From NCBI RefSeq assembly GCF_013390595.1, contig NZ_JACAWV010000020.1:124001-188000 (forward strand): a DNA stretch of 64,000 nt, in the 5' to 3' direction. Of this stretch, positions 32,181-43,340 are shown piece by piece. The position numbers were made by a program, and so were the translations under genes. A model generated the notes under the pieces. The model was not told where the DNA came from and ran no database searches. It saw nothing but the letters and a program-made list of their open reading frames with translations. Positions within the stretch are counted from its first letter, which is position 1, and every line of letters begins with the position of its first letter. This DNA comes from Rhizobium sp. RM. GTDB lineage: Bacteria; Pseudomonadota; Alphaproteobacteria; Rhizobiales; Rhizobiaceae.

Positions 32181-33911
32181 GTGAGACATCTATCAAAAGC
32201 TGAAACGCACGACCCGCAGGCCTATTTGACCGAGCGTCTGGCGCTTGCGCAGTCTCGCATCGAGCAAACATTCCTTGATGGCGGTTCGGTCCTCGTCTCA
32301 GTCATGGAAATCCTGAGCGAGCTCATCGCGATCCTGGATCGCATGACCGGCTCCATGGATGGCGATACCGCCGGTACGGCAGTGTCCAACATGCAAAAGA
32401 CGGTGGAGGAGCTCATCCGTCTTCCCGAAATGGAAAACGCACGGCAAGCAGCATTCACTGAAATGAGCACGCTTTGCAAATCCTCGAACGGCCATGTCGA
32501 CGATATCAAGGAGACTATCCGCTATTTGAAAACCTTCGCAGTCACCGTGAAGATCACGGGCGCGGGTATCTCCGAGTTTTCCGCTTTTGCCGAGGAAATA
32601 CGAGAGCGTATTCATTTCGGAGGCGATGAAGTTGCCAAATTTGCGCAATATCTCGATCTCATGGATAAGCAGCTCGCCAAAGCGCGTGATGTTTCGTCCG
32701 CTATCGGGGTGGATTTCGAAGCGACGATCCCGGAAATTGTCGGAGGGTTGAAGACCAATGCGGGTCGCATCGGTGACCAACATCGCGATATGACGGCGAT
32801 GGCATCCAAGGTGAAGTCGATTGCACAGGGCGTACAGGTCAAGATCGGATCGACACTCTCTTCGCTGCAGATCGGCGACATAACCCGCCAGCGCATCGAG
32901 CATGTGAATACAACACTGGCTCTTTTCGACGAGTATCGGCGCTCAGAGGAAGCAATGGTGCTGAGCGCTGCCGAAATGGATGCCTTAAGTGATACGGTGT
33001 TCGAGCTGGTTCGCGCGCAGATCGACGAAACAGCTGCAACCTTCCAACAGGATTGTCGCAAGATTTTTGCTGGAATCGCAAGCTTTGCCGATGATGCCGC
33101 CAACATTCTCTCTCTCCGCGATCGGCTGGTGGAAGATGCGGACAAGGACGGCGGCAGCGCGCTTCAACTGCTTGAAAGAGATATCGCCAAGGCGTGCAAT
33201 CTCGCAGGTCGCGTGCAGGAGAGTATGGTTGAAGCTAACGCGGCCGTCTCATCGGTGACCGGTACGGCGCAGGATCTCTTGCAGGGCATCGAGGTTCTAA
33301 GGTCCATCAAAACCGAAATTCACTACATGGCGCTGAACTCCAACCTGCGTTGCTCAAAGCTGGGTGACGAGGGACGTTCGGTCAATGTTGTCAGCGCTGA
33401 GCTTCGGGTCTTCGCCGACAAGCTGGAGACACCTGCAGACGCAATCGTTGGCGATCTTCGCCGGATCGAGGCGGCGATTGCCGATCTGGCTGGCGAAAAA
33501 CAGAGCTCCGCAGATCTGCGCGAACCGTTGAATGAGGCGCTTGACGCAGTCAGCCAGGCAAAGATCCAGATGGAAACCGGTCTGCGGGATCTGGCGGAAG
33601 AAGGGCAGGCGGTTTTCAGCCGTATCAGCGCCGCCGTGGTGAAGCTTGATTTTGAGAGCGAGCTTGGCAACGTTCTGGAAGAATGCAGGCAAATTGCCGG
33701 GGATATCGCTGTTACCAGCGCTCAGGATATAACGGCATTCGCAGAAAAGATCCTTCCCTTATCGTCTCGCATCTACAAGATCTATACAATGGCACAGGAG
33801 CGCGACGTCCATATGCACTACCTGCCGGTCGATCTCGCGTCCGGCCCGAAAGAGCTGATGACTACAGCCTCGGATGACGACGACGATCTGTTCGCCGACG
33901 CGCTTTTCTAG
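32181..33911 (+). CDS. Soluble chemotaxis-associated coiled-coil protein with degenerate MCP hairpin
   Basis: 576-aa, strongly helical, no membrane segment or signal peptide. Residues 370-415 line up with the receptor tip: MALNSNLRCSKLGDEG here against [16 protein letters not shown] in the neighbouring MCP, followed by VVSAELRVFADKL against [13 protein letters not shown]. The residues that contact CheA/CheW are therefore largely replaced. The acidic C-terminus ends DDDDDLFADALF. Start is a GTG at 32181 with AGGA upstream. It is convergent with the che/parA operon. A cytoplasmic scaffold or pseudo-receptor is my inference. Confidence 0.75.
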   Translation: MRHLSKAETHDPQAYLTERLALAQSRIEQTFLDGGSVLVSVMEILSELIAILDRMTGSMDGDTAGTAVSNMQKTVEELIRLPEMENARQAAFTEMSTLCKSSNGHVDDIKETIRYLKTFAVTVKITGAGISEFSAFAEEIRERIHFGGDEVAKFAQYLDLMDKQLAKARDVSSAIGVDFEATIPEIVGGLKTNAGRIGDQHRDMTAMASKVKSIAQGVQVKIGSTLSSLQIGDITRQRIEHVNTTLALFDEYRRSEEAMVLSAAEMDALSDTVFELVRAQIDETAATFQQDCRKIFAGIASFADDAANILSLRDRLVEDADKDGGSALQLLERDIAKACNLAGRVQESMVEANAAVSSVTGTAQDLLQGIEVLRSIKTEIHYMALNSNLRCSKLGDEGRSVNVVSAELRVFADKLETPADAIVGDLRRIEAAIADLAGEKQSSADLREPLNEALDAVSQAKIQMETGLRDLAEEGQAVFSRISAAVVKLDFESELGNVLEECRQIAGDIAVTSAQDITAFAEKILPLSSRIYKIYTMAQERDVHMHYLPVDLASGPKELMTTASDDDDDLFADALF

Positions 33912-33923
33912 AATTTCCTTGTT

Positions 33924-34625
33924 TCAGGCCGCCTGCATCAGTTTGCTGGCGGTCTCCTTCTCTGAAGCTTCAAGCAACCGCAGAACTTCGTCTGCGAAAG
34001 CGCCTGCATTTCTGAGGGCCTTGTCGAGGTTGCTGACAGTGCCTGAATTCATCGTGTGCAAGCATCCATCGAACTCGAACATATCTCTGAATGCCGATCT
34101 CTCGAAGATCGGCGTATCGAGGACACGGACATTCCTTTGTGCCAGGAGTTCGCGTGCGGCCAGCAGGGCACGCGTGGTGACAAGCGGATTAACGCGGGTC
34201 AGGACGACCGAATGCTCGATCCGGATATTTGCTTTTTCATAGAGGTAGCGCAGCAGTTCAAGAACTTGTGCGCCACCCTGAGCATCCATCGTGCTGCCCT
34301 GTACGGGAATAATTACGTGGTTAGAAAGGCCGATCGCCGTTGCCAGCAATGGTGATTGGGCGCCCGGCAGATCGATGAGGATGTGGTCGAACGCGCGCCG
34401 GCTATCGAGGACATGCTGTTGAAGTGTCGTCGCGGTCACATAGGTGATGACTGAAAATTCGACTTTGGCGTCGGCTTTTTCGCGCCAGCGGGATATCCAG
34501 CGTTGCGGATCGGTATCGATCACGCAGACCCGCGACCCGCGCCGGGCCAGTTCGGACGCCAGCAGCAACACAGCAGTTGTTTTGCCTGCGCCGCCTTTGG
34601 TGTTCGCGAAGGTGATAACTGGCAT
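33924..34625 (-). CDS. ParA/VirC1-like ATPase
   Basis: 233-aa P-loop ATPase with the deviant Walker A KGGAGKTT (10-17), an Asp at VIDTDPQ and LIDLPGAQ as switch region. The C-terminal stretch around IFERSAFRDMFEF recalls VirC1 of Ti plasmids. There is no ParB gene nearby, so chromosome or plasmid partition is unlikely. ParA homologues in che operons (PpfA, ParC) position chemoreceptor arrays, which is the likely role here. It lies 116 nt behind cheB, in the same direction. Confidence 0.82.
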   Translation of the reverse strand: MPVITFANTKGGAGKTTAVLLLASELARRGSRVCVIDTDPQRWISRWREKADAKVEFSVITYVTATTLQQHVLDSRRAFDHILIDLPGAQSPLLATAIGLSNHVIIPVQGSTMDAQGGAQVLELLRYLYEKANIRIEHSVVLTRVNPLVTTRALLAARELLAQRNVRVLDTPIFERSAFRDMFEFDGCLHTMNSGTVSNLDKALRNAGAFADEVLRLLEASEKETASKLMQAA

Positions 34626-34741: not shown

Positions 34742-35830
34742 TTAACGACGGCGATCCTCTGCCAGGATTTCCTGCGCAATCTTGTCGAGGTGAAGGATCT
34801 TGTCGACACCGCCATGTGCAATTGCTTCCTTGGGCATGCCGAAGACGACGGACGATGCTTCGTCCTGAGCAACTGTGAAAGCACCGGCCTGATGCATCTC
34901 CAACATGCCGCGAGCACCGTCGTCGCCCATGCCGGTCATGATGATACCCATTGCATTTGCCCCTGCCGCGCGTGCGGATGAGCGAAACAGGACGTCGACA
35001 GATGGGCGATGCCGTGAAACGAGAGGACCGCTGCGAATTGAGACACGGTAACGGGCTCCTTGCCGTTCCAGCAGCATGTGCTTGTCGCCCGGCGCAATCA
35101 GCACATGGCCACGCAAAACCGGGTCACCGTCCTCTGCTTCCTTGATTTCCACATCGCACAAGCTGTTTAGACGCTTTGCAAAGGCTGCGGTGAATTTCTC
35201 CGGCATATGCTGGACGATAACCATACCGGGAGAGTTTGCCGGTAGCCTCATGAGCATTTCACGCAACGCTTCTGTCCCGCCCGTGGACGCACCGACACAT
35301 ATCACCATTTCTGTGGTCCGCGCCATCGCCTTGCCCGACGGGGGCGGCAGCACGGCATCGGCCGTCAGTTTGGCGAGGGGACCGCTGGCTGAGGCTGATC
35401 GGAGGGCAGGGCGTGCATTTCCGACGCGGGCATGGGCAGCACTTTTGACGACTTCGCAGATGCGGGAAGCCTGCTCGGCAAGATGATCTGCCGCAGCGAT
35501 TTTTGGTTTGAGAATGATGTCGACAGCACCCGCTTCCAGAGCCTGCAGCAGTGTTTCCGATCCGGCTTCCGTCAATGACGAGCACATGACCACCGGGATT
35601 GGTTTTTGCGACATGATCTTGCGCAGAAAAGTAATGCCGTCCATGCGTGGCATCTCCACGTCGAGCGTAATGACGTCTGGGATTTCTTCCTGGATACGCT
35701 TGGCCGCGACAAAGGGATCAGATGCGGCTCCGATCACTTCGATCTTTGGGTCGCTCTCTAGAACCTGCGTCAAGGTCTGCCTGACGCTGGCAGAATCGTC
35801 GACAATAAGGACGCGGATCTTTTTCGACAT
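34742..35830 (-). CDS. cheB: CheB protein-glutamate methylesterase
   Basis: 362-aa protein: receiver (D11/D12, phosphoacceptor D57, K108) joined to the methylesterase domain with catalytic triad S182 (GASTGG), H208 (VQHMP) and D304 (MGDDGA). It removes methyl groups from chemoreceptors when phosphorylated by CheA. I chose the ATG at 35830, directly before the receiver, 11 nt after cheR; the frame is open 41 codons further but only inside cheR. Confidence 0.93.
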
Positions 35831-35841
35831 GGTGCCCGCCG

Positions 35842-36702
35842 TTACTGTTTCTTGAAAACGGTATTGGCGACCTGACGTAACGGCAGGTCGATACCGGTTA
35901 TGGTTTCGGAATGGCCGATGAAAAGATAGCCTCCCGGCACCAGGCGACGGCATAATTCGGTCAGCACATGTGTCTGTGTTTTCTTGTCGAAATATATCAA
36001 AACGTTACGGCAGAAAATAAGCTGCACTGCATCGCCGATCTGATACGTCTTATCCATAAGATTAAGACGAGCGAAGCCGATTTTTGACCGCAACCTTGGA
36101 ACAATCCTCACGTCCCGACGACCAGCGTCGACCGGGCGCATGACGTATTTGCGCATCATTTCTGCGGGAACCGGATCGAGAAGCTCACGGGCATAGATGC
36201 CACTATGGGCTTTCCTGAGTACGTCGGTGGAGAGATCGGTGGCGAGGATGCTAAAGTTGCTAATCACCTGTTTATCGAGAGCTTCGGACAGCACCATCGC
36301 CATTGTATAAGGCTCTGCGCCTGTCGAGCAGGCAGAACTCCAGGCTCTAATACGATTGTGACCCTCACTCACCAATGCCGGTAAGGCGAACTTTTCCAGG
36401 TAGTCGAAATGGTTCGGTTCGCGGAAGAAATCCGTCTTGTTTGTGGTCACCACGTCGATCAGATAGATTGCTTCTTCTTCCAGCCCGTCTTCACGGAACA
36501 GAAAGTTGCAATATTCGCCGAAGGTGGCATGGCCTGTGGCGCGCAGGCGCTTTCGCAAACGTCCCTCAAGCATCGTGCGCTTGGTATCGGGCATTTTTAT
36601 GCCGCTGTAATTGTAGATGTATTCGGCGAGCAGCTTGAAATCCCGCTGGCTCAATCCGTCGTAAGCAGCGGCGGACGCATTCACGGAAACGGCTCCCCTC
36701 AT
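35842..36702 (-). CDS. cheR: CheR chemoreceptor methyltransferase
   Basis: 286-aa SAM-dependent methyltransferase: N-terminal helical CheR_N (about 15-75) and Rossmann domain with [26 protein letters not shown] and [12 protein letters not shown]. It methylates receptor glutamates to set adaptation. The start overlaps the cheW stop by 4 nt (ATGA). Confidence 0.93.
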
Positions 36703-37196
36703 GCTGCTTGGACCGGTTTGCCACTCTGCCGGGCAAGGGCGCTCTCTTCATCCGAAAACAGTTTTGCCAGGTCGATGATGACAACAAAGTCACCCTCTCG
36801 ACGCACGACGCTGGCAATATAGTCGCAGTTCCATTGAACACCGATGTCGGGCGCGGATTCCATCTGGTCGCGGCCGAAAGGCGTTACCTCGAACACCTTG
36901 TCCGCCACGAGACCAACCGCAAGTGTCCGGGTCGGGAAGGGGATATCCAACACCAGCACACGCGTATGGGTGGTCCTCACGCTGCGGCTCATCCCGAGCC
37001 GCAGGCGAAGGTCGATGATGGGCACGCCCTGCCCACGCACGTCTCTCAGACCCAGCAGATATTCGGGGCTGTAAGGGATTTTGAAAGTATCCTCGTAGTC
37101 GAGAATTTCACGAACGACAGTCACAGGAACCGCGAAGACTTCCTCGCCGAGGCTGAACGTCACAAACTGGAAATCGGAGGACGTGCTGGTCATCAT
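36699..37196 (-). CDS. cheW: CheW chemotaxis coupling protein
   Basis: 165-aa CheW with the two SH3-like subdomains (LGEEVFAVPVTVVREI; LGLRDVRGQGVPIIDLR). It couples the MCP to CheA. It overlaps the MCP stop by 1 nt (TGATG) and cheR by 4 nt. One of two CheW genes in the operon; the other lies before the MCP. Confidence 0.92.
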   Translation of the reverse strand: MMTSTSSDFQFVTFSLGEEVFAVPVTVVREILDYEDTFKIPYSPEYLLGLRDVRGQGVPIIDLRLRLGMSRSVRTTHTRVLVLDIPFPTRTLAVGLVADKVFEVTPFGRDQMESAPDIGVQWNCDYIASVVRREGDFVVIIDLAKLFSDEESALARQSGKPVQAA

Positions 37197-39016
37197 CAGG
37201 CGCTTTCGCGGAAATCCGCATCATCGGCGTCAGGACCGCCCATGGACATGTCCAATGCAAAACCCTTGGCGCGGGCTTGCTGGGCACCGACAGAATTATC
37301 CGTGTGAGGCTTGCGTGCGACAGCAGGTTTGGTGGTTGCCCGTGGGGTAGCGACAGGCTTTGCGGCTGGGCGGCGCAGAACTTGAGCTGGGTGCGACGAG
37401 AGACCTGAAGCGTCAACCTTGAAGAAGGCGATGCTGCTCTGCAGTTCCTCTGCCTGTGCAGCCAGCTCTTCCGATGTCGCCGACATTTCTTCGGATGCGC
37501 CGGAGTTCTGCTGCGTGACCTTGTCGAGCTGCTGGATCGCCTCGTTTATCTGTGCGGCCCCGATATCCTGTTCGCGGCATGCGGCAGAGATCTCGGCAAC
37601 CAGTTCTGCCGTCTTGCGGATATCCGGAACCAGACGGTTCAGCATGTCACCCGCATCCGTCGCCACCTTCACCGTCTCGCCGGAGAGCGAGCTGATTTCA
37701 GCCGCCGCGGCCTGGCTGCGTTCGGCGAGTTTGCGGACTTCCGACGCCACGACGGCAAAGCCCTTGCCGTGTTCACCGGCACGTGCGGCCTCGACCGCAG
37801 CGTTCAGCGCGAGAAGGTCGGTCTGACGGGCAATTTCCTGCACGATCGAAATCTTCTCTGCGATGGTGCGCATCGCGACCACTGCGCGGTTGACGGCTTC
37901 GCCGCTGGCTTCGGCATCTTTCGACGACTGGCGAGCGATCTTCTCCGTCTGTGCGGCATTGTCTGCATTCTGCTTGATGTTGGCAGCCATCTCTTCCATC
38001 GAGGCCGATGCCTCTTCGGCAGACGATGCCTGTTCTGTAGCGCCCTGGCTCAACTGCTCGGAACTCGCAGACAGCTCCTGGCTGCCGGAAGAAACGTTGT
38101 CGGAAGCGGAAAGAGCATCTGCAACGATACCACGCAGGCGTTCGACCATACGTTCGAGCGCAAGACCAAGCGTATCGCGCTCTGACAGCGGCTTCGGCAT
38201 GACGGTTAGGTCGCCATCGGCGATGCGGTCTGCAATGCTGGCGGTGTTGCGCAGGTTGCCGGTCATAACGTTGATACGGTTTACGAGATCCTTGATCTCG
38301 TCATTCGTTTTGATCTCGACGTTCTGGTTGAGGTCGCCAACCGAAACTGCTTCGGCAACCGTCATGATCTTGCGCAGGCCGCTGCTGATGCCGAGTGCGA
38401 TCCAGAGTGCTGTTGCCGCGGCAATGAGGACGGCAACCGCCGATGCACCGATCAGAAGGGTGCGGGTCTGTTCGTAAGCGTCATTTGCCGCTTGCTTGGC
38501 GGCTTCAAGACGATCGCGGTTCATCTTGACGCCTTCATCCAGCTTTTGCGTCAAGGCATTGGCCGCCAGGCGACCATCCCCGGAGGAGAACGACGCAGCA
38601 AGCGAAGTGTTGCCCTGCGCGACCAGTTCGCGCACGCGATCGTCGCTCGCTTCGAACGCTTTTGTGATCGCCTGAAGGTCCGTCCAGTATGCACGTGTTT
38701 CGGCGCTGGCGCTGGTCGCCATATCGCTGAGCATCGCGTTGATATGGTTGCGGCTTTCGTCGCTGGACGCCTTGTGGCGCTGGGTTTCTTCCTGCGATGT
38801 TGAAAGGATCATGTTCTTTTGCGACCGGACAGTCGTCAGAGCCAGGGCATTCATCTGATGCACCTTGTCGAGACGCACGACCGTGCCTTCGACGACGTCG
38901 TCCATCGAATCCTTGGAGACGCCGAGGCTGTAAATGCCGTAGCCGGCGGTTCCGGCAAGCATCAATATAAGGAAGCCGAAGGCGGCGGCCAGCTTCATCT
39001 TGATTGTAAATCGCAT
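37196..39016 (-). CDS. Methyl-accepting chemotaxis protein, transmembrane
   Basis: 606-aa receptor: TM1 about 9-30, a periplasmic four-helix-type sensor (about 31-186), TM2 about 187-211, HAMP about 212-265 and a cytoplasmic hairpin with tip [20 protein letters not shown] near 396-415. The C-terminus has a flexible Pro/Ala/Lys-rich tail and no NWETF pentapeptide for CheR/CheB docking. AAGGAG is 8 nt before the ATG at 39016; the frame upstream lies within the preceding cheW. Confidence 0.92.
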
Positions 39017-39017
39017 A

Positions 39018-39563
39018 TCAATGCTCCTTGGAAAGTTCGATGACGTTGCCGCGTGTGCTGCCGACGCCCGGACCCGCGTCGCGGTGTGCCGTGAAAATTG
39101 CTGTGAGATTCGGAAGAATGACGAATTCGCTGCCCCGTTTGATGAGGCAGTGGATGTAATCTGCGCGCCACCGCATCCCAACACTGGGTGGGGGTTCGCT
39201 AGCGGCCCTGCTGAATGTTGTTACCTCATTCACCTTATCGGTGCGGATGCCGACCAAAGTGGTTTCGTTGTCGAGCAGAAGCTCGACGACGACGATGCGG
39301 CTGTCGATCGTCCGCTCAGTGGCGTCCATGCCAAAAGCGAGGCGAATGTCGGCAAGGGGAATGACCTTGCCGCGAAAATTTATCACGCTTGCCACGAAGG
39401 GCTTTGCGCCGGGAACCGCGGTTTCTGGCAAAAGGTCGAGGATTTCCTGTACTTTCACAGCTTCTATGGCAAAGGTTTCGCCGGCGATGTTGAAGGTAAG
39501 CACCTCCACCTCGCTGAAATCACCCCAGAATCCGTCGGTTTTTTTCAACAAAGGCTGGTTCAT
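39018..39563 (-). CDS. cheW: CheW chemotaxis coupling protein (second copy)
   Basis: 181-aa CheW-like protein: [18 protein letters not shown] and [19 protein letters not shown] mark the two subdomains. It overlaps cheA by 4 nt. Having two diverged CheW proteins in one operon suggests separate adapter roles, for example one for the MCP and one for a cytoplasmic array. Confidence 0.92.
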
Positions 39564-41527
39564 CCTGCCGCCCGCAATTGCGCCTCCTGCTGCTGTCCCG
39601 CTGTCACCAGATGGGCGACATCGAGAATGAGTGCGACATTGCCATCGCCGAGGATGGTTGCACCGGAGAAGGTCGCGACGTCATGGTGCAGTTTGGACAT
39701 GGCCTTGATGACTGTCTGGTGGTCGCCGATGATCTGGTCCACCACCAGTCCGACGCGCTCGGACCCGGTGGAAACCACGACAACTTTCTGGAATTCGCCA
39801 GGCGCCGTGCCGGTGTGGAACAATTCGCGCAGGCGGATAAAGGGGACAAGGCTTTCGCGCAGCGAAATGAAGGAGCGGCCACGCGAACGGATGTCGTCTT
39901 CAGGTGACAGTTCGAGGCATTCTTCCACGGCCGGCAGCGGGATAACGTAGCAGCCATTGCCGACGCGCACGAGAAGGCCGTCGATGATGGCCAGCGTCAA
40001 CGGGATCGCAAGCGAGATTTCTGAGCCGACGCCCGGTTCGCTGACGATGTTGATCGTGCCCCTTAAGGCTTCCACGCTTTTTTTTACGACATCCATGCCG
40101 ACACCACGGCCAGAAAGATTTGTAACTTCTGCCGCTGTTGAGAAGCCCGGCTGGAAGATCATCTGCAACAGGTCCTGATCGCTGACTTGGGCATTTGCAG
40201 CCAGCAAGCCGGAGGCCTCTGCCTTGGCGCGAACCCGTTGACGGTCGATGCCCCGCCCATCGTCACGGATCGTAATGGTCACATCACCGCCGGACTGACG
40301 GGCAACGAGGGTGATGCGACCCTTGGCCGGTTTCCCGGCTGCGATACGTTCATCGCTCTTTTCAAGACCGTGGTCGCAGGAGTTGCGAACAAGGTGGATA
40401 AGTGGGTCTGCAAGGCGCTCGATGACGGCTTTGTCCACCTCCGTGCTTTCGCCTTCGGTCTCGAGTTCGATCTGTTTGCCGGTCTCCCGTGCCAGATCAT
40501 GGATGAGGCGCCGGAAACGGCCAAATAGCTGGGCGATTGGCACCATGCGCAACACCATCATCGTGTCGCGCAATTCGCCAGAAAGACGTTCGACATCTTC
40601 TGATACTGACCGCAAAAGGATATCCGCACTGCCACCTGCCAACTGCGAGAGGCGTGATTGGGCGATGACCAGTTCGCCGACCCGATCCATCAACTCATCC
40701 AGTCGTTCCGCAGGTACGCGGACGTTTTCGGCGGTCTTGTTACCTTTTGGTTCGACTGCAGCCTTTTTGGTCTCCGCAAGCGGTTCGGGAACGATCGGCG
40801 CTGTCACGACCGCCGCCTTGATTTCACGTACGTCGATTTCCATGTCGTCCATGACAAAGATGAAGACGTCATCGATCGCCGATTGCGGTTGCTCCGTCGT
40901 CAAGCGGACTGTCCAGCCGAGGTGGAGGTCGCTCGGGTTCAGTACCTCAAGCAAAGGAACAGTGGAGGTATCGGCAACAATTTCGCACTCGCCGAGTTCC
41001 GCCAATTCATCGAGCAGACCAAGAGGGTTTGTCCCGTTCGCCATGGCGTTGACCGGCAATCTAAACCGGATTTCCCAGGTGGCGGAACGTGTCGTCGATG
41101 GTTTGTCTGCCGTGCTCTGAGTGGGAAGATGGGTGAGAACGCCACTGTCGCCACCCGCACCGACAGCAGCGTGTAGTCTGGCAAGAAGTCGTTCGCCGAC
41201 GTTGCCTTGAACGCCATGCGGGTTTTCGACCAATGCCTGCATGTGATCCTGTGCTTCGAGGACGGCGGCCACCAACTCGCTGGTCGCCGGAACCTCGCCC
41301 TTCCGCACGCGATCGAATGCTGTCTCGCAATGGTGGGTGAAAGCGGCGAGCGCTTCGAACCCGAACATTGCGCCGGACCCCTTCAGAGTATGCAATCCGC
41401 GGAAAACCGCGTCGATCTGGTCCTGATCGGTCAGATCATGCAGCAGGTCCAACAGACCGCTTTCAATCTGCTCGAAAAGCTCAGCTGCTTCTGTCCTAAA
41501 AACCTGAATGGGGTCCAGTGTGGTCAT
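39560..41527 (-). CDS. cheA: CheA chemotaxis histidine kinase
   Basis: 655-aa kinase: Hpt domain with H46 (GLHTLKGSG), a middle domain about 150-235, P3 dimerisation (NVRVPAERLDELMDRVGEL), P4 HATPase (LVRNSCDHGLE, DDGRGID, GRGVGMDVV) and a P5 CheW-like domain to the C-terminus. It phosphorylates CheY, CheB and probably the HD-GYP regulator. Its stop codon lies within the cheW overlap, and its start overlaps the cheY end by 4 nt. Confidence 0.94.
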   Translation of the reverse strand: MTTLDPIQVFRTEAAELFEQIESGLLDLLHDLTDQDQIDAVFRGLHTLKGSGAMFGFEALAAFTHHCETAFDRVRKGEVPATSELVAAVLEAQDHMQALVENPHGVQGNVGERLLARLHAAVGAGGDSGVLTHLPTQSTADKPSTTRSATWEIRFRLPVNAMANGTNPLGLLDELAELGECEIVADTSTVPLLEVLNPSDLHLGWTVRLTTEQPQSAIDDVFIFVMDDMEIDVREIKAAVVTAPIVPEPLAETKKAAVEPKGNKTAENVRVPAERLDELMDRVGELVIAQSRLSQLAGGSADILLRSVSEDVERLSGELRDTMMVLRMVPIAQLFGRFRRLIHDLARETGKQIELETEGESTEVDKAVIERLADPLIHLVRNSCDHGLEKSDERIAAGKPAKGRITLVARQSGGDVTITIRDDGRGIDRQRVRAKAEASGLLAANAQVSDQDLLQMIFQPGFSTAAEVTNLSGRGVGMDVVKKSVEALRGTINIVSEPGVGSEISLAIPLTLAIIDGLLVRVGNGCYVIPLPAVEECLELSPEDDIRSRGRSFISLRESLVPFIRLRELFHTGTAPGEFQKVVVVSTGSERVGLVVDQIIGDHQTVIKAMSKLHHDVATFSGATILGDGNVALILDVAHLVTAGQQQEAQLRAAG

Positions 41528-41892
41528 TTTCCAAGGACCTTTTTGACGATCTTGACCAGATGTTCCGCGTCAAAAGGCTTCGTCAGCCAACCGGTTGCGC
41601 CTGCGGCCTTGGCACGCGCCTTCATATCGGCGTCGGATTCCGTCGTGAGGAAGATGATCGGAATGCCGGTATGGGCCGGAGACTGACGAAGGGCCTCGAT
41701 CATCTCGAGACCGTTCATGTTCGGCATGTTGAGGTCGGTGATGATCAGGTCGAAATTCGCGGCCTTTGCCTTGCCAAGACCGTCCTGTCCGTCGATAGCC
41801 TCGGTGATCTGATAACCGGCGCCTGTCAGGGCAATTTTGGTTGTCATACGGATGCTGGCGGAATCGTCGACTGTCAGAATATGCGCACTCAT
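41524..41892 (-). CDS. cheY: CheY single-domain response regulator
   Basis: 122-aa receiver: acidic D9/D10, phosphoacceptor D53 (IITDLNMP), T/S switch at FLTTES and K105 (WLTKPF). No output domain. I start it at the ATG at 41892; AAAGGACC lies about 11 nt upstream. It sits 4 nt after the STAS gene and overlaps cheA. Confidence 0.92.
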   Translation of the reverse strand: MSAHILTVDDSASIRMTTKIALTGAGYQITEAIDGQDGLGKAKAANFDLIITDLNMPNMNGLEMIEALRQSPAHTGIPIIFLTTESDADMKARAKAAGATGWLTKPFDAEHLVKIVKKVLGK

Positions 41893-41896
41893 TCTA

Positions 41897-42220
41897 TTAT
41901 AGGTCCTTTCCATGCAGCCAGAACCGGCGGGAGGCGTCATCCATCCGCGACAGGAAACCGCCCCGTCGTAGTGTCTGCAGAACCTGGCCGTCTGCTGCGT
42001 CTTTCAAAGTTATGGTTTTGTTGTCTTGCGCCGCAGATTTGCGGCAAGCTTCGATGAGTTGCACAAAGCTCAGGTCCGCGTCGGCATCATCAGGCACCTC
42101 TACGATAAGGGTATCGGTGTTTTCGAGGCCCTGGAGGAGGAGACTGTGTGCGGCCGAAATCGAGCGTATGGACAGGGCCTGTGGCATCACCAAAGTGTTT
42201 TTCGTGGCTTCACCCGACAT
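41897..42220 (-). CDS. Small STAS-domain protein in the che operon
   Basis: 107-aa protein with a STAS (sulfate transporter/anti-anti-sigma) fold: the central DLSFVQLIEACRKSA and LQTLRRGGFL helices are recognisable. Its start overlaps the HD-GYP stop by 11 nt, and GGGAG precedes the ATG at 42220. Small STAS proteins are frequent next to CheA genes of alphaproteobacteria; their role is not settled and could be protein-protein switching. Confidence 0.75.
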   Translation of the reverse strand: MSGEATKNTLVMPQALSIRSISAAHSLLLQGLENTDTLIVEVPDDADADLSFVQLIEACRKSAAQDNKTITLKDAADGQVLQTLRRGGFLSRMDDASRRFWLHGKDL

Positions 42221-43340
42221 TGGGAAACTCCCGTGTGATGTGCGTGATCTGATCGTCCGCCGATTGGGGCTCATCCGGCATCTCGAGGCTTGGAACCTCA
42301 ATCTCCAGAAGTTCATGGCCAGCCATCAATCTTTCGATCTGCGGCCATTGGCGCTGGAAAGCTGCCACGCAGTCCGGATCGAAGTGAATGCCACTTTGTG
42401 CATCGATGTGTGCATAGGCCTCGTGAACGGACCATGCCTTCTTGTAGGGGCGCTCCGAGCACAGGGCTTCGAAAACGTCGGCAATTGCAACGATACGGGC
42501 TTCCAGAGGAATAAGTTCGCCAGCAATTTCGTGAGGATATCCGGTGCCATCCCACTTCTCGTGATGGCCGCCAGCAATGGCTTCTGCAACGCGCAAGAGT
42601 TCGGACGTTCCCTTTTCAAGGATCTGTACGCCGATGCCGACATGCTTTCGCATTTCGGTGATCTCGTCGTCCGTCAGACGGCCCGGCTTCAGTAGCACGC
42701 TGTCAGAGATGCCGATCTTGCCAACGTCGTGAAGCGGGGCGGCAAGATAGATCATTCGGCAGTGGTCTTCGTCGAGGCCTAGATCTTTCGCGATAAGCAT
42801 GCTGATTTGTGCGACCCGGGAGATATGGTCGCCAGTGTGGCCGTCGCGAAACTCAATCGCGCGCGCCAAGCGCCAAATGATTTCTTCCTCCCGGGCTGCA
42901 AGCTGGCGAGTAGCTTTCTGCACCTCACCCACCAGCCTGCTTGCCTGGCCAGCGAGATCGCGCTGTGCTCTGCGCAAGTCGAGGAGATTACGGACACGCG
43001 CTTTAAGCTCAATCGGGTCGAAAGGCTTGTTGATGAACTCGGTAATGCCAGCTTCGATTGCTTCGATGAGGATTGGTCGGGCTGTTTCAGATGTGATCAT
43101 GATCACAGGCACATGCGAAAAATGCTTGTAGGCCTTGAGCGCTTCGACGAGTTCGATGCCATTGTATTTCGGCATCGTATAGTCGACCACAAGCAGATCG
43201 ACGGCGTTGTCGCGGCAAAACTCCAGCGCCTCGACTGGATCGATAAAACCGACGATTTTTCTGAGCCCGGGGAGGCCCCGGATCGCCGCATCCAAGGCAA
43301 CAAGAATTGATTTGCTGTCATCGACCAATACGATTTGCAC
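42210..43340 (-). CDS. Response regulator with HD-GYP phosphodiesterase domain
   Basis: 376-aa protein: receiver (D7/D8, phosphoacceptor D53, K105), a coiled-coil linker (about 118-160) and an HD-GYP domain with H204-D205 (HDVGK) and HHEKWDGTGYP (259-269), so the catalytic signature for c-di-GMP hydrolysis is intact. First gene of the che operon, with a GTG start and GAGG 5-6 nt before it. It couples the chemotaxis kinase to c-di-GMP level, if CheA phosphorylates it. Confidence 0.9.
   Translation of the reverse strand: MQIVLVDDSKSILVALDAAIRGLPGLRKIVGFIDPVEALEFCRDNAVDLLVVDYTMPKYNGIELVEALKAYKHFSHVPVIMITSETARPILIEAIEAGITEFINKPFDPIELKARVRNLLDLRRAQRDLAGQASRLVGEVQKATRQLAAREEEIIWRLARAIEFRDGHTGDHISRVAQISMLIAKDLGLDEDHCRMIYLAAPLHDVGKIGISDSVLLKPGRLTDDEITEMRKHVGIGVQILEKGTSELLRVAEAIAGGHHEKWDGTGYPHEIAGELIPLEARIVAIADVFEALCSERPYKKAWSVHEAYAHIDAQSGIHFDPDCVAAFQRQWPQIERLMAGHELLEIEVPSLEMPDEPQSADDQITHITREFPNVG

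Follow-up and report, generated by a model that had tools for sequence, protein, structure and literature searches.

The window analysed here (the whole stretch of 64,000 nucleotides from contig NZ_JACAWV010000020.1 of Rhizobium sp. RM) carries a gene for a protein of 576 amino acids, which faces the gene of a ParA-family ATPase and, behind it, a complement of chemotaxis genes that we call the Che2 cluster (Table 1). The immediate neighbourhood of the gene with ParA, pointed out in a preliminary description of this DNA, is thus borne out. None of the ten proteins scanned at the locus matches CheZ in Pfam at E 0.1, nor does anything in the whole source genome match the Pfam CheZ model at E 0.001. 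The STAS ORF is overlapped at its start by the gene of a REC-HD-GYP response regulator (42210-43340, minus strand; Pfam Response_reg and HD_5), which suggests a possible input of the Che2 operon into c-di-GMP.

Table 1. Features of the locus, with positions in the window and residues of the 576-aa protein where applicable
Feature	Position	Strand	Basis or remark
Gene of the 576-aa protein (putatively tandem, receptor-derived and CheZ-like)	32181..33911	+	576-aa ORF, GTG start, convergent with parA
Half 1, MCP-like hairpin, residues 105-165, predicted turn 127-130	32493..32675	+	hhalign, Foldseek
CheZ-type DXXXQ block LQIGDITRQRIEH, residues 229-241, putative catalytic D233/Q237	32865..32903	+	Conservation, CheZ alignment
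Half 2, MCP-like segment, residues 370-415, altered yet conserved	33288..33425	+	Pfam, hhalign, alignment
Degenerate DXXXQ counterpart LDFESELGNV, half 2, residues 489-498	33645..33674	+	Short-family alignment
YTMxxERxxH block, residues 535-544	33783..33812	+	Six positions in 40/40
Acidic amphipathic tail DDDDLFADALF, residues 566-576, putative CheY tether	33876..33908	+	Conservation, CheZ likeness
ParA-family ATPase of the Che2 cluster, neighbour of the gene, outside the proposed mechanism	33924..34625	-	Pfam scan; 12 bp from the gene, convergent
Che2 cluster, whole	34742..42316	-	Pfam scan; no CheZ match among its ORFs
CheB, Che2 cluster, followed by ParA	34742-35953	-	Pfam scan
CheR, Che2 cluster	35842-36702	-	Pfam scan
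CheW, Che2 cluster (second)	36699-37196	-	Pfam scan
MCP, Che2 cluster	37196-39184	-	Pfam scan
CheW, Che2 cluster (first)	39018-39563	-	Pfam scan
CheA, Che2 cluster	39560-41527	-	Pfam scan
CheY, Che2 cluster	41524-41940	-	Pfam scan
STAS, Che2 cluster, first in transcription order	41897-42316	-	Pfam scan

The product had been described as a soluble helical protein with an acidic tail and no membrane segments, and so it appears: its AlphaFold2 model is nearly all helix (mean pLDDT 81.9, pTM 0.54), a Kyte-Doolittle profile finds no membrane segment (highest 19-residue mean 1.83), and it ends in SDDDDDLFADALF. Pfam matches no HAMP or sensor domain in it, which alone is not decisive, as soluble MCPs exist. 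Neither is there a match to the CheW-like PF01584 at E 0.1, a difference from array partners of the ParP type, whose AIF domain is described as CheW-like (PMC5706961).

Conservation was read from an alignment of 40 homologues, 19-79% identical to the 576-aa protein, made of nine genus rows (out of 20 in an earlier alignment) together with L027, L039-L064 and L065-L068. Omitted from it were L006 and L010 (tail lost), L019 (an unread residue), L069 (an ordinary MCP) and L072, and family matches with no assigned locus are represented only through their genomic contexts. At 385 aa, L072 might have passed for a natural half-length homologue; a weak continuation in the adjoining frame led us to read it as a frameshift. 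Likewise, open frames of 900-1050 aa that looked like fusions overlap cheB and were read as stop-free upstream frames. At least 11 of 349 Pseudomonadota genomes match the alignment over half 1 or more (1e-18), all 11 of them from the class of the window organism, and two further matches cover half 2 only.

The best conserved block of the alignment is LQxGDxTRQRxEH (residues 229-241), where Q230, G232, D233, T235, R236, Q237, R238, E240 and H241 are invariant, i.e., the D and Q of a CheZ-type DXXXQ motif are present in 40/40. A second block, YTMxxERxxH, is invariant at Y535, T536, M537, E540, R541 and H544. Both recur in 37 genomic contexts that we picked by hand from the family matches: DXXXQ is retained in all of them (36 by pattern, the last with M for T), and YTMxxERxxH in 35, the exceptions being one frameshifted gene and one with C for Y. 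At the C-terminus, F is the last residue in 38 of the 40 homologues and ALF the last three in 35. Of 13 stretches compared, it is the N-terminus that varies most (mean majority 0.27). Since a D...Q spacing is cheap (when the protein is shuffled, 90% of the copies contain one), any case for a phosphatase has to rest on the position and conservation of the motif. At the corresponding positions half 2 has S493 and N497, with D at 493 in only 2 of the 40 sequences and Q at 497 in none. A D..Q pair that is fixed in one half while its counterparts in the other vary freely is what would be expected if a single active site were under selection.

Acidic tails ending in F are not limited to this protein. 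In the main che operon of the source genome, CheD (L096:9083-9628) ends in NDIEFF and a putative CheT (L096:9642-10025), so named by its position after cheD, in GDFDLF; CheD of another genome (L170:9160-9762) ends in EEDVVLF. Perhaps such tails, judged from their letters, are one shared recognition tag of several Che proteins. One genome (G236) has two copies of our gene (L162 and L163), each close to a che cluster, and the tail of one copy reads EDDEMLGVFL instead of ..DLFADALF.

The second half of the protein resembles the signalling domain of MCPs. PF00015 aligns to residues 339-466 with E 3.6e-4, at 20.8 bits and thus below its cut-off of 34.6. A profile of residues 263-576 compared with 31 MCP sequences gives an hhalign probability of 98.4 and a score of 109.6, which none of 40 block shuffles attains (best 61.8), and it is because of this probability and the failure of the shuffles that we take the resemblance for homology. 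The fold predictions agree in part. Foldseek finds a chemoreceptor model as the best PDB match of the full-length AlphaFold2 model (E 7.2e-4), and chemoreceptor cytoplasmic chains as the best nine PDB matches of a separate model of residues 75-262 (mean pLDDT 91.2), although with a top E of 0.011 none of the nine falls below 0.01. This latter model is a hairpin with its turn at 127-130. In the full-length model, however, the helix 327-413 runs unbroken with no turn at the tip in 370-415, which speaks against a hairpin there. By the profile comparisons half 2 is homologous to the MCP signalling domain, and half 1 more distantly so. As the best PDB matches of both models are chemoreceptors, the predicted fold is receptor-like, and the likeness to CheZ would reside in the motif, its position and the tail.

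The preliminary description had seen in residues 370-415 the likeness to an MCP hairpin, which the profile comparison with MCPs and the chemoreceptor matches uphold, and had called it a decayed receptor tip. That its contact residues differ is correct. At the position of E385 of Tsr, which like N376 we take to be a contact residue (Tsr numbering, with the letters compared with E. coli Tap), the 576-aa protein has R390, and the 40 homologues have R in 36, K in 3 and A in 1; at the position of N376 they have H in 25, Q in 7, R in 4, N in 1 and others in 3. Judged by these two positions of the alignment, the canonical MCP interaction tip is absent. Decay, however, is not what the segment looks like: 13 of its 46 columns are at least 90% conserved, compared with 58 of 576 overall, and the altered residues are themselves fixed (e.g., R or K in 39/40 at the E385 position), for which reason we discarded the notion of a decayed receptor. 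The protein thus differs from MCPs in scoring under the Pfam cut-off, in its altered tip and in having no HAMP, sensor or membrane segment, while its second half is homologous to theirs. The same description had overlooked the hairpin at 105-165, DXXXQ, YTMxxERxxH and the CheZ-like tail.

A link between receptors and the DXXXQ motif comes from a family of shorter proteins, grouped in this analysis, which a core profile found beside the full-length relatives. Its ten founding members (L170, L175-L182 and L185) carry, in this order, an MCP tip, QFxDxxxQ and, for the most part, an IELF-like tail. QFQDxxxQ follows the tip after 116 residues in nine of them and after 117 in one, and the IELF-like end is found in nine, L182 being the one without it. 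Every one of the ten is set among che genes: in four cases cheY-cheA come directly next, in five cheB precedes, and the tenth follows cheA, beside cheY-like genes. In the sample of 349 Pseudomonadota genomes, 31 match this short family at 1e-45, and the majority of these belong to other classes. The proteins of 30 of these 31 genomes were retrieved for motif counts: QFxDxxxQ and the IELF-like tail are each present in 30/30, as opposed to 0/31 ordinary MCPs, a count that leans toward the motif because the search profile was built from motif-bearing sequences. For this reason the fixed distance from tip to D (116 residues in 26 and 117 in 2 of the 28 proteins measured) is the stronger point. Among the 73 ORFs of che contexts whose tip is canonical, six have QFxDxxxQ, and all six are the short proteins themselves. 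Pfam assigns the three short proteins scanned to MCPsignal, a PDB profile search with the short family returns chemoreceptors (the same search with the core gives nothing useful), and some members have what by eye appear to be N-terminal membrane segments.

Both halves of the 576-aa protein align with this family colinearly and from end to end. For half 1 (residues 1-262) the alignment covers 187 columns, with an hhalign probability of 97.7 and E 2.3e-12; for half 2 it covers 252 columns, with E 1.4e-17. Their scores of 91.4 and 129.5 compare with maxima of 51.8 and 57.3, respectively, in 60 block shuffles. On this basis we read the protein as a tandem duplication, in which half 1 has retained DXXXQ, whereas half 2 has lost it and bears the tail. 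The reading depends on the alignment of each half to the short family, the direct comparison of half 1 with half 2 being weak (probability 17.8 only). Members of the short family have one module with an intact tip in some 330-550 aa, as opposed to two modules with an altered tip in the 576-aa protein, and the combination of receptor hairpin, CheZ-type motif and tail reads as an old module, doubled in the latter.

How close is this module to CheZ itself? For the comparison we used 31 CheZ sequences (30 alphaproteobacterial and that of E. coli). Half 1 aligns with them at an hhalign probability of 49 and a score of 37.1, hardly above the shuffle maximum of 36.4 and so only suggestive; even so, the alignment pairs both catalytic residues, and the DXXXQ block falls on FQD..GQ of CheZ. 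The 83-residue core scores 31.7, which 1 of 40 shuffles attains. The short family does better, with E 3.4e-6 and a score of 50.4 that none of 60 shuffles attains (maximum 33.3). A match of the core profile to a genuine CheZ (L184, E 9.7e-4) was set aside as within chance, given that a non-Che protein (L183) scores E 8.1e-4. PF04344 (CheZ) has no match in the 576-aa protein at E up to 0.1; in control genomes of E. coli and Bacillus subtilis the same model finds matches, above its cut-off in one of the two. Among the matches listed in three fold comparisons CheZ is absent, an absence that does not exclude a likeness to CheZ, and those listed by VIA-align are mainly generic helical bundles.

The anatomy likewise shows both likeness and difference. 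CheZ has its DXXXQ in a long helix, followed in the alphaproteobacterial forms by R-I-x-[KH]-V; it shares the motif in such a helix with the 576-aa protein, which nevertheless has SLQIG where CheZ has AXXFQ, so that the FQ before the catalytic D becomes IG. CheZ of E. coli has 214 aa, as against 576 aa with two receptor-type hairpins and one DXXXQ only. Its helical hairpin forms part of a four-helix bundle; in our protein a hairpin is predicted, with no CheZ among the PDB matches listed. The acidic amphipathic tail of E. coli CheZ, SQDQVDDLLDSLGF (DDLLDSLGF), is similar by eye to DDLFADALF, more so than the alphaproteobacterial CheZ tail SQDDIDALL, and the C-terminal region of E. coli CheZ is reported to be involved in CheY binding (PMC7750401). 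By its motif the 576-aa protein is thus CheZ-like; the Pfam test places it outside the CheZ family, and it is no canonical receptor.

The distribution of the gene ties it to the Che2 cluster. Among the 37 genomes sampled from the genus, the gene occurs in 21 and a Che2-type CheA in 20; this CheA is present in 20 of the 21 genomes with the gene and in none of the 16 without it, i.e., the two agree in 36 of 37 (Fisher p 1.3e-9, a value that ignores the kinship of the genomes). The mismatch is G013: within the tail codons of its gene (L169:7529-9325) the DNA diverges from the window at an apparent deletion junction, and elsewhere in the surrounding 20 kb that were read the cluster queries find no match, as if a single deletion had removed the cluster together with the gene's end. 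The gene lies outside the cluster in 15 of the 21 genomes, eight times on the same contig (at a distance of about 112 kb at least) and seven times on another, where contig breaks leave linkage undecidable. Around four of these 15 unlinked copies no che genes were found in the surroundings read. Three of these four (L131, L132 and L133) adjoin a LuxR-type (GerE) regulator, and in the two of these regulators that were scanned Pfam matches no receiver domain.

We therefore propose, judging it rather probable from the sequence comparisons, that the 576-aa protein is a receptor-derived, single-chain, CheZ-like CheY-P phosphatase of Che2. In CheZ, the acid holds the active-site lysine of CheY and the amide positions the attacking water. 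D233 and Q237 of half 1 would act in the same way on the CheY-P of Che2; tethering of CheY would fall to the C-terminal helix DDLFADALF, the counterpart of the CheZ tail. As a built-in partner, half 2, still receptor-like though dead at the matching position, would fill out the bundle, and it may in addition anchor the enzyme to receptors, to CheW or to CheA. Counting in favor of this proposal are the conservation of D233 and Q237, the bridge to CheZ by way of the short family, the tail, a genome with no Pfam CheZ and the co-occurrence with Che2; counting against it are the weak direct similarity to CheZ, IG in place of FQ, the lack of a Pfam CheZ match and the presence of a putative CheT. Because the main che operon encodes the latter, a phosphatase would not be wholly missing from the cell.

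Other functions deserve consideration. A partnership with the adjoining ParA, suggested in the preliminary description, would have the protein stimulate the ATPase or be positioned by it, in the manner of TlpT and PpfA. The two genes are convergent neighbours in the window, a ParA ORF is found in 9 of the 37 contexts, the same 20 genomes of the genus hold Che2-type ParA and Che2-type CheA, and for 77 species homologues of PpfA are reported to lie within che operons, with a putative cytoplasmic receptor also present elsewhere in the genome in 86% of these species (PMC2829493). (The bare presence of a ParA says little, as all 37 genomes of the genus have one 53-59% identical to that of the cluster.) Against this, in 28 of the 37 contexts no ParA occurs in the stretch read, a count that speaks for adjacency and not for presence in the cluster, as the stretches may miss cluster ends. 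Three or more kinds of che genes are seen in 31 of the 37 contexts (the six others being L131-L134, L141 and L164). In 13 distant ones, read for up to about 9 kb on each side, the gene immediately follows cheB and no ParA is seen, one further contig being too short for a verdict. In the four clusters without the gene that were read, ParA still follows cheB, and as the gene is apart from it in 15 of 21 genomes of the genus, the gene tracks Che2, not ParA. TlpT, moreover, is reported to meet PpfA through its N-terminus (PMC3964821), the very part that is poorly conserved here. We thus regard a ParA partner as highly improbable.

A better, though still unlikely, candidate is a cytoplasmic receptor or scaffold that would sit in or beside the Che array by way of CheW or CheA and shape it or sense, with no catalysis, DXXXQ being then a structural or dimer-contact motif. 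The receptor-like nature of both halves and the conservation of the receptor hairpin are in keeping with it, and so is the example of TlpC of R. sphaeroides, a soluble protein of 580 aa described as lacking canonical MCP structure, which binds itself, CheW4 and CheA3, and whose loss leaves the cluster diffuse (PMC3964821, PMC6829392); its CheA partner differs by paper, being CheA3 in PMC6829392 and CheA4 in PMC10924463. What such a role leaves unexplained is the CheZ-like tail and a catalytic-type D..Q fixed in 40/40, and the tip contacts are changed, with R for E385. Similarly, the cytoplasmic pseudo-receptor of the preliminary description was right as to the receptor descent of both halves, yet passed over the most conserved part of the protein, its CheZ-type motif. 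Should the tail, with F at its end in 38/40, and the bundle only sequester or carry the CheY-P made in the same cluster, the protein could be a sink or an adaptor that does not catalyze; we find this improbable, as the D..Q pair ranks with the best conserved features whereas its half 2 counterparts vary freely.

Coming back to the proposed phosphatase, TlpC may be the known counterpart of the 576-aa protein. By its published description, with which alone we compared it, TlpC is of similar size and likewise soluble, has weak MCP homology, no glycine turn motif and a place in a che operon, and it is read in print as a receptor. Plasmid searches found no Rhodobacterales copy, and a search with a short protein likewise gave no match. 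The DXXXQ chemistry has a precedent within the order: rhizobial CheT (S. meliloti, and Atu0522 of A. fabrum), reported as a DXXXQ CheY phosphatase with no homology to CheZ (PMC12654446). CheT differs from the protein studied here in its size (~130 aa), in not being receptor-like and in belonging to another operon, and the putative CheT used as BLAST query at 1e-5 matches no ORF in the contexts that hold relatives of the 576-aa protein. In the open-access literature, with most subscription papers outside its scope, we found no receptor-type protein with a CheZ motif. More tentatively, and with less confidence than in the phosphatase itself, we suggest from these alignments a widespread class of receptor-like proteins of Pseudomonadota that would be CheY-P phosphatases, with the protein of the window as an asymmetric duplicate and TlpC as a member.

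Of 240 genomes sampled from the class, 93 match the Pfam CheZ model, and in the other che-bearing ones the signal may be ended by other means. Known answers other than CheZ are CheT (PMC12654446) and the phosphatase activity reported for CheA3 of R. sphaeroides (PMC6829392), and a class of receptor-derived phosphatases, if true, would be another. In R. leguminosarum a che2 cluster, matched to the present one by its name, is reported to matter in nodule maturation (PMC7617929). If our interpretation is correct, the active site would lie at a fixed distance (116-117 residues) from the receptor tip, the array may thereby have signal termination built into it or docked on it, and the 576-aa protein, with one live and one dead site, would serve a che cluster that has no CheZ. 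Proteins now filed as chemoreceptors would then be testable as enzymes, and those resembling TlpC would have a catalytic hypothesis of their own.
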